Virus record (IMG/VR): IMGVR_UViG_3300041583_000259
Coordinates: 1-48,938 of that record
Reading direction: 5' to 3' (one strand)
Origin: a virus
DNA: 48,938 nucleotides
The first letter of the stretch is position 1, and every line of letters starts with the position of its first letter. Positions 8,699 to 17,080 of the stretch are shown in pieces. The position numbers were made by a program, and so were the translations under genes. The notes under the pieces are model-generated. The model saw nothing but the letters and a program-made list of their open reading frames with translations, was not told the origin of the DNA and did no database searches.

Positions 8699-10195
8699 CT
8701 AAGCGATTGGTGCGTTGTCAGCAGCTCTTTGATCGTTAGCATTTGTCTGCATAGACCCTACAGCCCCACTGTTGCCCTGGCTTGGCACAGAACTAGCATC
8801 GTTCTGGGACTGGTCAAAAACAGGTGGGTTACCAGGATGCATTTTTGGAACATCAAGAAGTTCTATAACAGCTTCGCGATATTCATCATCCCAAATTGCA
8901 TTAGTCTCTTTTGCAAGTGCATATGCCTGCATCATTCGCTGAGTTGCCTCAACCTCAATCTTTGGCCAGTTGACGTTTACGTCCGGGGCACCAAGGAAAA
9001 CCAAAACTCTTTTGTAAAACTGAGACCACACAGCTTGACGAGATTCCATGGCCTTCATGGTTGGAATGTCTAGTGTCTGTGCGGTAGCAGAGGAACCAGA
9101 GGTTCCAGGGTCGCTAAGAAGAGCTACTATCGATACCTCTAACGCGGAAGCTACCATCGATGCTAGTGGCCTCCCAGTGCCCAAGTCTACGGTGTTTGAT
9201 CGCGGCATCGAGTTCATCTCCATGCCGTCGCCCATCACTGCTGTCGAGCCTGCTGTCGAGCCTGTCGCAATTGCAGCTGCAGCCGCAGTTCCGCCCGCTC
9301 TAGTCTTGCTTCGAAGTTGCCACGCGAACATCGCTAGGGACTTCAAGACCCTTGTGCCATCCTTCAGATACTCGTTGTACGCATGTGCCCACGGAAGTGC
9401 AGGTAGTGCATCTGGAACACCCCATACTCGACCAGCCCTTCTGTTGACTCGAGATACAAACATTCTTTTACTGGTGTCGACTGGCTGCTTCTGGATACTT
9501 GTTGCGTATCTAACGCCAACCGGGTTGTAGCTGTCAGTTGGATACCAGACGTTCATCTGCTTAGAAACTGATGTTCCGTCAGAAAGGTTCTGGTCAGTTC
9601 TAGTCCAGGTTCTTCTAACATAGCGAATCTTTTCCGAATCATCTGGGTCGGTAACAACTGCAGTGATTTGGCTAAACGGAATTCTGGAAAACTCTTTTGT
9701 CCTAATGTCGCCAGTCACAAAAAACTGACCATCAGTAAAGTGACTACGCTCGTTGATCGATTGTGCCTCGGGGGAGAACAAGACATCCTGATTTACAGGG
9801 TTGTCAATTACCTTTTTAAATCTAGGCTGCAAGTCTCCAAATGAAACACCGCGCCCAAAGATATAACTGGTTCGCATTGCAGACCCACGCTTTAAAAGCG
9901 GGTTGGCCTCGGTCATCTCGCGGATGCGCTCTGAGGCACCCTGGATCTCTGCAAGTGTAAAGCCATTGCTTGGATCGACACCGTTAGGTACATCCCATCC
10001 AACATCATCAAAGGCCATGATGGCTCTTGCTACGGAAGAGTAAGACTCTTTAAGTATTTCATTCTCGCCAGAAACTTCGCTCAATCTAGAAAGAACCTTA
10101 GCCACATCCTCAGATGCGGAGGCTTGAGACTCTTTAAGTAGTTTGTTTTCAGCAGACATTGCTTGCAGCTTGCCTGATCCTTTATTGAGTTCCAT
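8699..10195 (-). CDS. Portal protein
   Basis: A 498-residue protein between large terminase and protease, the standard place and size for a portal. An N-terminal coiled stretch (about 1-55) contains a twice-repeated ENxxLKES motif. The core has FSRIPFSQI, RTWTRTDQNL and WYPTDSYNP strands, then WGVPDALPALPWAHAYNEYLKDG, a helix-rich stem (ALAMFAWQLRSKT) and a low-complexity Ala/Gly/Asn-rich C-terminus. The portal forms the dodecameric DNA gate at one capsid vertex. A promoter with a hairpin over its -35 lies just upstream. Confidence 0.85.
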   Translation of the reverse strand: MELNKGSGKLQAMSAENKLLKESQASASEDVAKVLSRLSEVSGENEILKESYSSVARAIMAFDDVGWDVPNGVDPSNGFTLAEIQGASERIREMTEANPLLKRGSAMRTSYIFGRGVSFGDLQPRFKKVIDNPVNQDVLFSPEAQSINERSHFTDGQFFVTGDIRTKEFSRIPFSQITAVVTDPDDSEKIRYVRRTWTRTDQNLSDGTSVSKQMNVWYPTDSYNPVGVRYATSIQKQPVDTSKRMFVSRVNRRAGRVWGVPDALPALPWAHAYNEYLKDGTRVLKSLAMFAWQLRSKTRAGGTAAAAAIATGSTAGSTAVMGDGMEMNSMPRSNTVDLGTGRPLASMVASALEVSIVALLSDPGTSGSSATAQTLDIPTMKAMESRQAVWSQFYKRVLVFLGAPDVNVNWPKIEVEATQRMMQAYALAKETNAIWDDEYREAVIELLDVPKMHPGNPPVFDQSQNDASSVPSQGNSGAVGSMQTNANDQRAADNAPIA

Positions 10196-10284: not shown

Positions 10285-11784
10285 TTACCAGACCCATTCG
10301 GTATAAAACGCACTATCGCCTGCAGTTTGTGAGGCATCCATTCGCATAACGTCCCCGGGCTTACGGCCTCTGTGAGGCGAGTTGAGTAGCTGTGTAAGGT
10401 CTACACAGGCGTAAACAGCAGAGTCTAAATTGTCAGGGGACTTAATCCCGCGGCTACGCATGTCATCTTTAGATTCAATCTGAATAGAACCAGTAGTGTG
10501 GAACTTATAACGCAGCATCATCATTTCATCAAAGAGTGCCTTGTCATCTGGATCAACATCTAGCTTGCCTGTCACCATCTGCTCGCGTAGCGAGTCAAAA
10601 TTAAATGCCCTGGCATTGAACCATCTAGTCCTGTCCGGAGACGCAGCAGAACCCATCATAGATATAACAGTGTATCTGCCATCAGCAATCACAACCAATT
10701 GGTCCACAACCGGGCCACCAAGACCTGCAGCATCCACTCGAACCTCTGTGGCTCCAGTTTCCATGGCTGCTTGGTGCACACGGTTTGCAGACTCAATAGC
10801 AGTTGCCTTTGACCAAGACTTGTAGTGCCTAAGCCTTCCGCCTCTATTTATATAGATAACGCTATCGTCATCACCAAAGCGAGCAAGGTCAACACCAAGC
10901 ACCGCAGTCTCTTGAGCATCGTCCTCTATCTGTACATCGTGTGCCTTGTCCAAGGCAGTTTGGCTAAAGAAAGTAGTATCGTCTTCTTCGGGAAACTCTC
11001 CAAGCACCTTTGAGCGGTATCTTGCTGAATCAACGCCCCATGCCTTAGCTTGCCGCTCTACCCAGCTCTTCTGAATCAAAAGGGGGCTTACATCTTCTGG
11101 CACCCATTCCCCAGTAAAGTTTGGGGAGTCCATTGCCGAAATCTTAATCTTATTCCAGGTTTCGTCCTCGCGGAAGATTCTATGAAACTCGGTACCCCTT
11201 CGGTCGGGGTTACCAATAGCAAGCACTCTAGAGTCTGCCGAGGTAGTAACTGCTTCTGCTGCAGTATATAGGTCAGTTGGGATTCCACCAGCCTCATCCA
11301 GGATCACAAACACAAACCTGCGGTGAATACCCTGGAACGCCGAGACAATGTCTGTGTCAGAGGGCCTTCTACCAAAACCAATCAAGGTTCCGTACTCATC
11401 GTCGAGCTTCCACTCTTCGGACTGGTTAATGTGTCCTGGCAAAGCAAATCCGTTTACCGCAGCAAGTTTGTGGTTATCCTTTAGCTCGCGAAACAAAACG
11501 CGGGCAATCTGCGGATAAGTAGGTGCAGAACAAATCATTGCCACTTCATACGGGTCGTGAACCGCAATCCACCAGCTTCCCATAATTCCAGCAGTCGCAG
11601 ACTTGCCAGCACCGTTACATGACACCACAGCGGTGTGAGTGTGCTCTACAACACTGTTTGCAATGTCAGCCTGCTTAGACCACATGTGCTTACCCAAAAC
11701 ATCACTGGCCCATGCGACTGGGTCGGTCAGGTAGATAGAGTTCTTTGACCTCTTGCGTAAATCGGCAATTACGCCGTCAATCAC
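10285..11784 (-). CDS. terL: Terminase large subunit
   Basis: A 499-residue packaging motor. The ATPase domain has Walker A SCNGAGKS (about 55-62), a following SAPTYPQ segment, and Walker B FVILDEAGG (about 159-167, DE at 163-164), with the coupling segment AIGNPDRRGTEFH. The C-terminal RNase H-like nuclease starts at GVDLARFGDDDSV (first catalytic Asp) and continues with VRVDAAGLGGPVVDQL. It pairs with the small subunit to cut and pump DNA into the prohead. The start is GTG, 5 nt after the DUF3310 stop, so coupling is likely. Confidence 0.95.
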   Translation of the reverse strand: MIDGVIADLRKRSKNSIYLTDPVAWASDVLGKHMWSKQADIANSVVEHTHTAVVSCNGAGKSATAGIMGSWWIAVHDPYEVAMICSAPTYPQIARVLFRELKDNHKLAAVNGFALPGHINQSEEWKLDDEYGTLIGFGRRPSDTDIVSAFQGIHRRFVFVILDEAGGIPTDLYTAAEAVTTSADSRVLAIGNPDRRGTEFHRIFREDETWNKIKISAMDSPNFTGEWVPEDVSPLLIQKSWVERQAKAWGVDSARYRSKVLGEFPEEDDTTFFSQTALDKAHDVQIEDDAQETAVLGVDLARFGDDDSVIYINRGGRLRHYKSWSKATAIESANRVHQAAMETGATEVRVDAAGLGGPVVDQLVVIADGRYTVISMMGSAASPDRTRWFNARAFNFDSLREQMVTGKLDVDPDDKALFDEMMMLRYKFHTTGSIQIESKDDMRSRGIKSPDNLDSAVYACVDLTQLLNSPHRGRKPGDVMRMDASQTAGDSAFYTEWVW

Positions 11785-13071: not shown

Positions 13072-13953
13072 TTAGTGCTTGCCAACTCCTACCATACGCG
13101 CGAACTGCTCAAAGGTCTTACAGTTCAAAATCCAATAAGTAGAATTTTCGGTCAAGGCGTAAGCGATTACGGCCCGTGACACTGCACCACGAATTTTCAG
13201 CAATTCATAATCGAACGTGACACGCCAAAATCTGAACTCAACCGTACTTTTTCGGCCGTCCCAATCTTGGCCAATTTCAAACGGCCTGACATCGTTGTTG
13301 GCGCAATTCCAAATTGAGATAAAAGAATCACGCCTAAGCCGTGCAGTAGTGCCCTTATGGAACCACTCGGCAGTGGTGGCCCTACCGTCGATGTTGTAAT
13401 CATCTGCCCACTCGGTGAGCCACTCGGGAGCCAGCTGACGCATTTTGTCGCCTATTGCTACGGCGTTTCTAAGCTGAACCCTAGTTAGGTCTCTGGCCTC
13501 AACGTGAATGTGTCCACTCCACTTTTTACCGTAGGCCCGATACTCAGATTCTCGGTTTAGCATTGCTTCGCTTTGGCAAGTTTCTAAAAAGGCCTTAGCC
13601 TCTTCGGGGAAAGCAAACCGTGTCGGGGTCTCTAGGGCTATCTCATTAGGCGCTTCGCACTCTGAGCCCTGACAATGGTCGGGGTAATCATCCATCCCGC
13701 AATTGTCGCAATTGCAGTCATGTTCTGAGCACTCCGAGCAACCACACTCACAACCATCTTCATTTAGTGATTCAACCGACGCATCTGTTTTGAAATCAAA
13801 GGGCGCATAGCTGGCATAGTAGGCCGATTCCTTGGCCCTAGCGATAAGCGGGTGTTCGCACTCGAATCCCCAACGGCGCACTAGGGATTCATCTGGTTGA
13901 ATTTTGGCTAGGTAAATCACGGCTTCGTTTTTAGTTTGAAAATTGGTTGTCAT
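13072..13953 (-). CDS. Amidoligase-like protein with Cys-rich insert
   Basis: A 293-residue protein. The pieces GFECEHP (about 29-35), SGHIHVEARDL (about 146-156) and STVEFRFWRV (about 236-245) match the pattern of the COOH-NH2 ligases of the glutamine-synthetase-like amidoligase superfamily, where acidic and His residues bind metal and ATP. A segment at about 67-100 holds nine cysteines in 34 residues, probably a zinc-binding insert. Known superfamily members join amino groups to carboxylates in peptides or cell-wall precursors. It is the first minus-strand gene, facing a class II glutamine amidotransferase across the control region, a pairing seen elsewhere. The AGAGAAAAGAG ribosome site is clear. 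The family call is by motif only. Confidence 0.6.
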   Translation of the reverse strand: MTTNFQTKNEAVIYLAKIQPDESLVRRWGFECEHPLIARAKESAYYASYAPFDFKTDASVESLNEDGCECGCSECSEHDCNCDNCGMDDYPDHCQGSECEAPNEIALETPTRFAFPEEAKAFLETCQSEAMLNRESEYRAYGKKWSGHIHVEARDLTRVQLRNAVAIGDKMRQLAPEWLTEWADDYNIDGRATTAEWFHKGTTARLRRDSFISIWNCANNDVRPFEIGQDWDGRKSTVEFRFWRVTFDYELLKIRGAVSRAVIAYALTENSTYWILNCKTFEQFARMVGVGKH

Positions 13954-14115
13954 TTTAGTTTTCTCTTTTCTCTAAGTAGTTGGCTAAATAATGTTCGGAA
14001 TTAGGTTGTAACTATTTTCAATGAATAGATAAAGCGTTACTAGTGCCACTAGGGCAATTCGGCGAATTGTGAATTTGATTAGGTGCCTTTCAATAGTCGG
14101 TGTGTTCATGGCATA

Positions 14116-14145
14116 AATCTAGTGCCCGAATTAGGTAGGTGTCAA
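14116..14145 (-). promoter_or_regulatory. Minus-strand promoter for the amidoligase/late block
   Basis: On the minus strand, TTGACA (14145-14140) is followed after 18 nt by TAGATT (14121-14116). Spacing and the TANNNT form match the plus-strand promoters found nearby. The leader to the amidoligase-like gene would be about 155 nt. Confidence 0.55.
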
Positions 14146-14234
14146 ACATTATTTCGGCGTGTTGTTATTTGTTTTTTATTACTACCTATAGGGGCCGAAA
14201 TTTAGGGCCAAGTTCCGGTGCTCTCAGCGGATCT

Positions 14235-14266
14235 AATCTGAGAGATTCCTGTGAACTATCTGGCCG
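14235..14266 (+). repeat. 32-bp direct repeat, copy 1
   Basis: Begins AATCTGAGAGATTCCTGTGA and ends TATCTGGCCG. The second copy starts 45 bases later and differs at only a few positions. It is likely a protein-binding site pair in the control region. Confidence 0.75.
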
Positions 14267-14279
14267 AATTCTGATAGCG

Positions 14280-14311
14280 AATCTGAGCGGTTCCTGTGAG
14301 TTATCTGGCCG
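14280..14311 (+). repeat. 32-bp direct repeat, copy 2
   Basis: Begins AATCTGAGCGGTTCCTGTGA and ends TATCTGGCCG, matching copy 1 apart from a few substitutions. Confidence 0.75.
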
Positions 14312-14403
14312 TCACCTGAAAAAAGCCTGATTCTTATTCTTGCGCGTATAGGTGCGTGTGGGCGTACATGTGGGCGTTGTGTATGCGCGTAAGTTGCCCC
14401 CAC

Positions 14404-14420
14404 CAGCGCGAATTCCCAAA
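14404..14420 (+). repeat. Iteron-like 17-bp repeat, copy 1
   Basis: CAGCGCGAATTCCCAAA, first of three perfect copies at 39-40 bp spacing. The core includes the palindrome GAATTC. Confidence 0.8.
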
Positions 14421-14442
14421 TACTCCATAAGTGTTGCAGGCT

Positions 14443-14459
14443 CAGCGCGAATTCCCAAA
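14443..14459 (+). repeat. Iteron-like 17-bp repeat, copy 2
   Basis: Perfect second copy of CAGCGCGAATTCCCAAA, preceded by CT as in copy 3. Confidence 0.8.
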
Positions 14460-14482
14460 TGGGCGCGTGTGGGTGCCCTCCT

Positions 14483-14499
14483 CAGCGCGAATTCCCAAA
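14483..14499 (+). repeat. Iteron-like 17-bp repeat, copy 3
   Basis: Perfect third copy, followed within 10 bases by an ACATAGCG motif and about 100 bp upstream of the first plus-strand promoter. Confidence 0.8.
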
Positions 14500-14603
14500 C
14501 GTTATGACATAGCGATGTAGTCCTACCCCATCAAGGGATCGATTTTGGATCTAAGAATGCGTTTCGCATGCTGGCATCGAATCAACCACTTTTCACCAAT
14601 AAC

Positions 14604-14632
14604 TTGACAATCCAACATAGCGATGTTACGTT
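14604..14632 (+). promoter_or_regulatory. Plus-strand early promoter 1
   Basis: TTGACA (14604-14609), 17-nt spacer, TACGTT (14627-14632). An ACATAGCG motif lies in the spacer. The predicted leader carries a strong ribosome site for the first plus-strand gene. Confidence 0.7.
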
Positions 14633-14663
14633 CTACTTATCAACCTCAAAAGGAAGGTACAAA

Positions 14664-14867
14664 ATGATCACTTACTCCATCTACTGGCTACTCACTGACG
14701 GCACAAAGCTCTACCATGCCGACACTGTCACTGGAGCCCCTTGGTTGTTCTACTCTTACGATTCTATGTATGAGGTCGCACAACGGCTTCCAACGCCACA
14801 GGGAGGCGCTCAGCTAATGTTCCACATAGGTGAGCGTCCTACCTCGATTCCGTGGCCCACTATCTGA
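14664..14867 (+). CDS. Hypothetical protein, first early gene
   Basis: A 67-residue protein of unknown function, rich in Tyr and Trp (YSIYWLLTDG, then WLFYSYDSMYEVAQRL). I chose the ATG at 14664 because AAAGGAAGG lies 8 nt upstream; a longer reading from 14568 would overlap the promoter. Being first behind a strong promoter suggests an early host-takeover factor, but there is no domain evidence. Confidence 0.7.
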   Translation: MITYSIYWLLTDGTKLYHADTVTGAPWLFYSYDSMYEVAQRLPTPQGGAQLMFHIGERPTSIPWPTI

Positions 14868-14877
14868 CACTCATGAT

Positions 14878-14906
14878 TTGACATTCGCGACAATACGACA
14901 TAGACT
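14878..14906 (+). promoter_or_regulatory. Plus-strand promoter 2
   Basis: TTGACA (14878-14883), 17-nt spacer, TAGACT (14901-14906), 38 bp upstream of the amidotransferase start codon. Confidence 0.65.
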
Positions 14907-14944
14907 TATAACACTTACGAAAACAGAAAGAGAAGGTGATGCCC

Positions 14945-15970
14945 ATGTGTGGTATCGGAGGATTTTCATTATCAGAAAAGTCGAGCATAAACGCTCGCAA
15001 GCTTTCAAACATCATGCTCTCAGAGCTAGATGTCCGTGGTAACCAAGCTTCAGGCTTTGGTTACCAGACAGCAACCAAACAGGGCCTGTATAAAAAAGAC
15101 GTAGCAGGTTCGGCGCTGTCCCTAAAGTCCATGCCCAAGGATGCCAAGAATGTAATTCTGCACACCAGATTTGCAACCCACGGCACAATCATTGACATGG
15201 AAAATAACCACCCTGTCCAGTCGCCAGATGAGACTATTGACCTAGTTCACAATGGCGTTATTTTCAATCACGATGTAGTTCGCAAGGAATTGTCTTACAA
15301 GTTGCCAGAGGTAGACACCTCAGTAATACCTGCAATCCTGCAGAAGTTTGACAGCAACACCGACAAGTTCAACATGCTTGACGGCGATGCTTCCGTTGCA
15401 TGGCTAGACAAAAAGAAAATAGGAGTTATGCAGGTCGCAAGAATTGCACACTCTCCACTCTTTATTGCTCAGGTCAAGGATGGTTCATTCCTATTTGCAT
15501 CAACTGCAAAGATTCTGCAATCCACGATTGACAAAATGCACCTCAAGATTGACTTCTTCCAAGAGGTCCAAGAGCGCAAATTGTATTCCATCAAAGCTGG
15601 TCGCATCATCACAGTTTCAGACCTGCCCGAAATGGATCCAAAGTACGAAGATAAGTCATTCAAGAACTATGGCTCATACCGCAACATGACATCAGGAGGT
15701 CACGGAAACTCAAAAGCTACCGGTATGCCAATCAAGTCACTCTGGGGCGATGTAATCATCCCCGAGAGCTGGTACGACTACGACGAAGAATCAGAAGGAG
15801 GTTATCCAGATGTTGTCGGATTATCCGCAAATCAGTACGGCGAATATTTCGACAAGAATGGTGTCTTTATGGGCGACTATAACGACATGGTTGATTGGGG
15901 AATTATTGATCCAAGTGCTCCAGAAATACAGGAGGAAAACTTCTACTTTGAAGAGTACAAAATCAGCTAA
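14945..15970 (+). CDS. Class II glutamine amidotransferase-like protein
   Basis: A 341-residue Ntn-hydrolase-type protein. With the start at ATG 14945 the second residue is the nucleophilic Cys (MCGIGGFSL), as required after Met removal; AGAAGG sits 8 nt upstream. Further class II hallmarks are LHTRFATHG, ENNHPVQSPD and LVHNGVIFNHD, which bind glutamine and form the oxyanion hole. The enzyme releases ammonia from glutamine for a partner synthetase. The C-terminal about 100 residues are acidic and match no synthetase, so the acceptor is a separate protein. The amidoligase-like gene across the control region is the obvious candidate. It has its own promoter. Confidence 0.85.
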   Translation: MCGIGGFSLSEKSSINARKLSNIMLSELDVRGNQASGFGYQTATKQGLYKKDVAGSALSLKSMPKDAKNVILHTRFATHGTIIDMENNHPVQSPDETIDLVHNGVIFNHDVVRKELSYKLPEVDTSVIPAILQKFDSNTDKFNMLDGDASVAWLDKKKIGVMQVARIAHSPLFIAQVKDGSFLFASTAKILQSTIDKMHLKIDFFQEVQERKLYSIKAGRIITVSDLPEMDPKYEDKSFKNYGSYRNMTSGGHGNSKATGMPIKSLWGDVIIPESWYDYDEESEGGYPDVVGLSANQYGEYFDKNGVFMGDYNDMVDWGIIDPSAPEIQEENFYFEEYKIS

Positions 15971-16741: not shown

Positions 16742-17080
16742 ATGGCACTAACACCGGAGATTCAAATCAGAGAAGACATCCAAGAAAATTTGGTTGAGCT
16801 CCTCAACTCCTCTTACCCCGAGGACATGCTAAATGAAATGGCAGACGGCTTTGTTCCAATGTATTACTCAGACATAATCGCTGAGTGGATGGAGCTACCA
16901 GCAGACTTTCAGGACTCTTGGACAGAGTACGGAATGGACGAATCATTCGTGCATGGTGGCATCAGTCGCCTCATGACGATCGATTTGGCAGGCTACTACC
17001 AGAGCGAATACCACAGGCTTTACCGCATCATGTCCGAAGAAGTCGAAGAAGAAGCACTGGCAGAACAGGAGACTAACTAA
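16742..17080 (+). CDS. Hypothetical acidic protein
   Basis: A 112-residue, strongly acidic, mostly helical protein ending in a Glu-rich tail (SEEVEEEALAEQE). AGAAGGAG precedes the ATG by 7 nt. Its stop overlaps the next start (TAATG), beginning a chain of coupled small genes. Small acidic early proteins often inhibit or mimic host targets; nothing specific can be said here. Confidence 0.7.
   Translation: MALTPEIQIREDIQENLVELLNSSYPEDMLNEMADGFVPMYYSDIIAEWMELPADFQDSWTEYGMDESFVHGGISRLMTIDLAGYYQSEYHRLYRIMSEEVEEEALAEQETN

Follow-up and report, generated by a model that had tools for sequence, protein, structure and literature searches.

A cell-wall role for phage modules that combine an amidoligase with a glutaminase was reportedly predicted by Iyer and colleagues in 2009. 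This prediction has been repeated for such modules with credit to Iyer et al. 2009 (PMC10580990; PMC11318856). In the LUZ24-like phages (Bruynoghevirus), where an Amidoligase_2 gene adjoins that of a class II glutamine amidotransferase (GATase) in the early region (PMC3890496), the amidoligase/GATase pair has been called a putative peptidoglycan modification module (PMC11945000). The LUZ24-like cluster consists of a COOH-NH2 ligase, an amidoligase, a GATase, an ATP-grasp protein and GGCT, all encoded in the same direction. In the Arthrobacter phages LiSara and Salgado (Laroyevirus), a co-directional operon comprises a Cys-rich protein, GGCT, an amidoligase and a GATase. In the literature searched, we found neither an experimental test of the enzymes of a phage amidoligase/glutaminase module nor a phage example of peptidoglycan changed in infected cells through such a module. 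As far as this literature goes, the function of the module is still the prediction that it was in 2009, possibly owing to the size of the known clusters, which comprise as many as five enzymes.

The DNA analyzed here, referred to as the window, is an IMG/VR virus record of 48,938 bases (IMGVR_UViG_3300041583_000259). Its structural block, which includes tail genes along with those for the terminase and the portal, is on the minus strand, while its replication block, with helicase, primase, Sak4-like and exonuclease genes, is on the plus strand. At the point where these blocks diverge, an amidoligase gene and a GATase gene lie back to back (Table 1). What the window shares with the LUZ24-like module is an amidoligase adjoining a class II GATase; in contrast to that cluster, its set consists of two genes, is divergently oriented, and includes an amidoligase with a Cys-rich insert. 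The Laroyevirus operon contains the same ligase and glutaminase families as well as a Cys-rich protein of similar pattern, and the Laroyevirus GATases are the closest named relatives of the window GATase, at ~34% identity. There, however, a gene of its own encodes the Cys module, and the amidoligase lacks the insert, differing instead in its N-terminal part, which gives a weak HTH match.

Table 1. Positions of the genes and sequence elements discussed in the text, numbered along the window
Feature	Position	Strand	Basis or remark
Portal	8699-10195	minus	structural block
Terminase	10285-11784	minus	structural block
Hairpin with UACG tetraloop, just past the amidoligase stop codon	13027..13052	minus	terminator-like, poor T-run
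Amidoligase (GS-like carboxylate-amine ligase), 293 aa	13072..13953	minus	family alignment, hhalign, AlphaFold2 fold, BFVD matches
Cys-rich insert of the amidoligase, residues 68-99, CxCxCxxCxxHxCxCxxC...HC...C	13657..13752	minus	conservation in 22 sequences
Divergent intergenic control region	13954..14944	.	repeats
Three direct repeats, CAGCGCGAATTCCCAAA	14404, 14443, 14483 (14404-14499)		spacing ~39-40 bp
Small ORF upstream of the glutaminase, 67 aa	14664..14867	plus	same-place homologues in L005, L006, L008, L017
Class II glutamine amidotransferase (glutaminase) domain protein, 341 aa, Met-Cys start	14945..15970	plus	PF13522, PF13537, PHROG_14519, 1xff

Taken alone, the window amidoligase has no family match in Pfam, PHROG or NCBIfam, nor is it matched by PF12224 (Amidoligase_2) at E<=1. 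With this protein as the query, tblastn in phages returned nothing, even at E 10, and the plasmid search and the single-protein scans of viral and genome contigs were likewise empty. Its relatives were reached via an alignment of the glutaminase, on which 36 viral loci were anchored. In 12 of the 36, phmmer identifies a homologue of the window amidoligase next to the glutaminase and on the other strand, with E-values from 5e-68 to 4e-11. The window protein and these 12 relatives align to the Arthrobacter-type Amidoligase_2 proteins over the elements GxExE, DxS, E, HxH and ExR, in the same order; the corresponding motifs in the window are GFECE (E31, E33), D57-S59, E104, HIH (H148, H150) and VEFR (E239, R241). 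Residues E31, E33, H148, H150, E239 and R241 are invariant in a 29-sequence alignment; in a 28-sequence alignment D57 is invariant along with these six, and S59 and E104 are conserved in at least 90% of the sequences. Because PF12224 directly matches 7 of the 13 family members (best E-value 2.9e-9) and not the window protein itself, we regard the latter as a divergent protein related to the Pfam family, not as one of its formal members. Comparison of the window family, including the 12 relatives, with other phage Amidoligase_2 proteins using hhalign gave 99.4% (E 4.7e-22), while three column-shuffled versions gave 0.1-0.2%. The amidoligase dN/dS is 0.07-0.12 in three pairs of relatives (one at 58% identity), which indicates purifying selection and thus a real gene; a fourth, distant pair gave 0.45.

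The AlphaFold2 model of the window amidoligase (pTM 0.81) has the glutamine-synthetase/YbdK fold. The best matches among solved folds are YbdK (Z 10.6, with an rmsd of 4.1 over 197 residues) and the glutamine synthetases (Z ~9), enzymes that use small free substrates and share this fold at ~10-13% identity; glutamate-cysteine ligase (Z 8.9) and Dop (Z 8.8) also match. To our knowledge, neither YbdK nor glutamine synthetase has a paired class II glutaminase. Used alone, Foldseek found no match to the model under 0.001 in the PDB, and a sequence profile search of solved structures gave chance-level matches only. Against BFVD, Foldseek yielded 19 matches under 0.001, and the best viral models are named amidoligases. 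The foremost structural match, A0A6J5MRC8 from an uncultured member of the Caudovirales, is annotated as an amidoligase enzyme (24% identity, TM 0.61); it comprises 489 aa, compared with the 293 aa of the window protein. By its motifs, profile and fold, the minus-strand protein belongs to the amidoligase / COOH-NH2 ligase superfamily, which is where an earlier note, made from the letters of this DNA, had placed it. ATP-dependent formation of an amide bond is its predicted activity. A Cys-rich structural or regulatory protein in place of an amidoligase is ruled out by the same motif, profile and fold results. In six loci (L012, L013, L014, L015, L016 and L066), the amidoligase has an extra N-terminal region of at least 200 aa.

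The plus-strand gene most likely starts at the ATG at 14945, which is preceded by GAGAAGG and reads Met-Cys-Gly; the listed GTG at 14936 is merely the earliest start in the frame. Given this start, the Cys becomes residue 1 once Met is removed. The protein matches PF13522 (GATase_6; 2.1e-15, above the cut-off), PF13537 (GATase_7; 2.3e-13) and PHROG_14519 (1.8e-35), and, in the PDB, the glutaminase domain of GlmS (1xff; 3.4e-6). The class II active site is intact and includes Cys1, Arg74, Thr77, His88, Asn102-Gly103 and Asp123; we take Cys1, Arg74, Asn102-Gly103 and Asp123 to be equivalent to Cys1, Arg73, Asn98-Gly99 and Asp123 of GlmS. This start, the active site and the PF13522 match agree with the earlier description of the product as a class II glutamine amidotransferase with an exposed Cys. 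The protein has no recognizable second domain, such as a synthase, and its C-terminal ~110 aa are without a family match. In both pairs that could be measured, dN/dS is <=0.12. The two genes are genuine and lie where they had been placed; they encode an amidoligase and a class II glutaminase, and the catalytic residues of both are intact. Soon after the glutaminase gene, at 16742-17080 on the plus strand, there is a match to an Ocr-like anti-restriction protein (PHROG_2568, 9e-6).

In searches with amidoligase and glutaminase profiles, an amidoligase turned up close to the glutaminase in each of the 36 viral loci anchored on the latter, and a glutaminase is present in 25 of the 26 loci found by the amidoligase with the Cys-rich insert (Cys-type). 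In the exception, L046, the amidoligase frame starts 27 bases from the end of the contig, so that the stretch expected to hold the glutaminase is missing. By comparison, the Arthrobacter amidoligase is matched (E 0.01) in 127 of 50,697 phage records. The two genes are paired and inherited together across related phages, as the earlier note had anticipated. Once duplicates are removed and the window is included, 23 of 25 Cys-type loci are divergent (head-to-head), the others being the co-directional L059 and L066. The start codons are 538-1024 bp apart in the 13 divergent loci measured; in the window, the genes diverge across 991 bp, consistent with the earlier description of a pair facing each other across a control region. 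The Cys-type sequences form one set in the tree of either gene; L016 is nested within this set in the amidoligase tree (support 0.97) and is its sister in the glutaminase tree, where the node for the set is supported only at 0.28. The Cys-type subtype was not found in the cultured phages, plasmids and bacterial genomes searched, nor in the genome contigs searched with the amidoligase family alignment.

Such an association could in principle be positional, in that the junction of early and late blocks would be a stable place in which each enzyme works alone; the location of the genes on opposite strands and the possibility that the amidoligase has its own terminator are consistent with this explanation. 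However, unrelated phages also have these two families as neighbors, encoded in the same direction, and neither gene is missing from any of the loci found, except where a locus is cut short. A shared position does not by itself account for this, and we consider such an explanation highly improbable.

Just past the stop codon of the amidoligase, the 77-nt stretch that contains the hairpin has a folding energy of -25.5 kcal/mol and a z of -2.8. At the same place, z is <= -1.8 in 19 of the 26 loci tested, with sequences that differ from one another; the two co-directional loci do not show this feature. A consensus terminator scan based on T-runs did not list the window hairpin. The location of the hairpin implies that the amidoligase may be its own short transcription unit, which at this stage is suggestive only. 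Matches to sigma-70 promoters upstream of both genes are no commoner than in shuffles. With a hairpin possibly of its own for the amidoligase and promoter-like matches at chance level, the proposal in the earlier note that the amidoligase belongs to a late transcript and the glutaminase to an early one is weak.

The CAGCGCGAATTCCCAAA element of the control region is found nowhere else in the window, but L005, L006, L008 and L017 have it in their intergenic regions as well; its three copies are a candidate iteron or regulator site. A 32-bp repeat in two copies (AATCTGAG..TTCCTGTGA..TATCTGGCCG) occupies 14235-14311, and a stretch of 25-28 bp near it recurs, inverted, in the intergenic regions of L006 and L017. 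Other small repeats are also present. The product of the 67-aa ORF has no match in Pfam; upstream of the homologues of this ORF in L006 and L017 there is a Cys-rich stretch in the same frame.

The closest relative of the window portal is that of Clavibacter phage CN1A, at 44% identity, and other relatives are mostly from Microbacterium and Arthrobacter phages. These relationships support an actinobacterial host, in line with the actinophage context assumed previously, and the phage group that carries the pair is uncultured and probably infects actinobacteria. CN1A, the nearest phage by its portal, is absent among the GATase matches, and its terminase-side region is without an annotated amidoligase.

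As earlier noted, the insert of the amidoligase contains exactly nine Cys (C68, C70, C72, C75, C80, C82, C85, C94 and C99), in addition to H78 and H93. In 22 sequences, C70, C72, C75, H78, C80, C82 and C85 are invariant, and four more Cys or His are conserved in at least 90%. The insert comes after the DxS strand and before the next Glu strand, at a position where other phage amidoligases have a short loop. Its pLDDT is below 50 in both AlphaFold2 models; the second run, with Cys-type sequences only, did not improve it. Because of these values we only infer that the insert binds zinc or another metal, with zinc binding being likely. When all frames of at least 50 codons in the window and 66 loci were scanned for the Cys pattern, the sole match other than amidoligases was the freestanding protein of LiSara/Salgado. 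This Cys-rich protein, at 5782-6312 of L003 in LiSara, adjoins GGCT and is encoded three genes upstream of the GATase; its sequence score is weak (E 0.04). The insert may be related to it, a lead rather than a demonstrated relationship. An amidoligase with a Cys-rich N-terminal region is encoded in L034 (11100-13145), and the structural matches of the window amidoligase include a phage protein named LIM-domain; from these two cases, the acquisition of a Cys module by a phage amidoligase may have happened repeatedly.

The insert bears on the question of whether the pair modifies proteins. In that case, the ligase would couple a carboxyl group on a phage or host protein to ammonia, an amine or an amino acid, with the Cys module as a guiding finger that binds protein or nucleic acid. 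With its invariant core, the insert is likely to be a macromolecule-binding element, a freestanding Cys-rich protein of similar pattern is part of the Laroyevirus operon, and one of the fold matches is Dop, a depupylase whose substrates are side-chain amides of proteins. Nevertheless, GS-fold ligases act mostly on small molecules or peptides, and neither a target protein nor a co-conserved substrate was identified; we consider protein modification rather unlikely.

GGCT, the cyclotransferase of the fuller modules, was not found in the window and the Cys-type loci with an 11-sequence profile that detects it in Arthrobacter- and LUZ24-type loci. No ATP-grasp (RimK-like) protein was found in the window and 12 Cys-type loci with a single PhiCHU query, with which a distant one could be missed; relatives of the PhiCHU protein were found in LUZ24-type loci. 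With GGCT and ATP-grasp missing, the pathway is not identical to those of the better-known modules. We conclude that the window pair would work like the fuller phage modules but is not a copy of them, as it is without GGCT and ATP-grasp and adds a Cys module. GGCT, which removes gamma-glutamyl groups, is also pertinent to the possibility that the product is a small gamma-glutamyl-type or amidated metabolite, such as a signal, a protectant or a precursor for DNA base decoration. The presence of GGCT in related operons would be consistent with such a product, as would the fact that the closest solved fold is that of YbdK, an enzyme resembling glutamate-cysteine ligase. However, neither the window nor its relatives have GGCT, and the genes covered by the PHROG scans included none recognized as serving nucleotide hypermodification. 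A metabolite product thus seems decidedly unlikely.

The reading we moderately favor is that the two proteins form an enzyme system that depends on glutamine and carries out amidation or ligation, and whose most likely target is a peptidoglycan peptide or its precursor. The stand-alone class II glutaminase would hydrolyze glutamine via its N-terminal cysteine. The GS-fold ligase would use ATP to activate a carboxyl group, which it would then couple either to the ammonia that the glutaminase supplies or to a different amine. From its place in the sequence, the Cys-rich insert would be near the mouth of the active site; it is probably held by zinc and might hold a partner or a large substrate. 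The target would most likely be the peptide part of the host peptidoglycan or its precursor, and the outcome could be a phage-specific wall that excludes rival phages or prepares lysis. No feature of the window singles out peptidoglycan; by analogy with the described modules, the wall would be the leading target. A bolder form of this proposal is that the GS-fold ligase and the separate glutaminase constitute an unrecognized two-subunit glutamine amidotransferase, in which a zinc-held module of the ligase, near the active site, grips a macromolecular substrate; we put this forward tentatively, as rather unlikely.

The two-gene set can be seen as a stripped-down, Cys-rich version of the known phage enzyme set. 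As this version is kept across a whole uncultured phage group, its chemistry is testable with two proteins, and the invariant Cys module provides a concrete handle on the choice of substrate.
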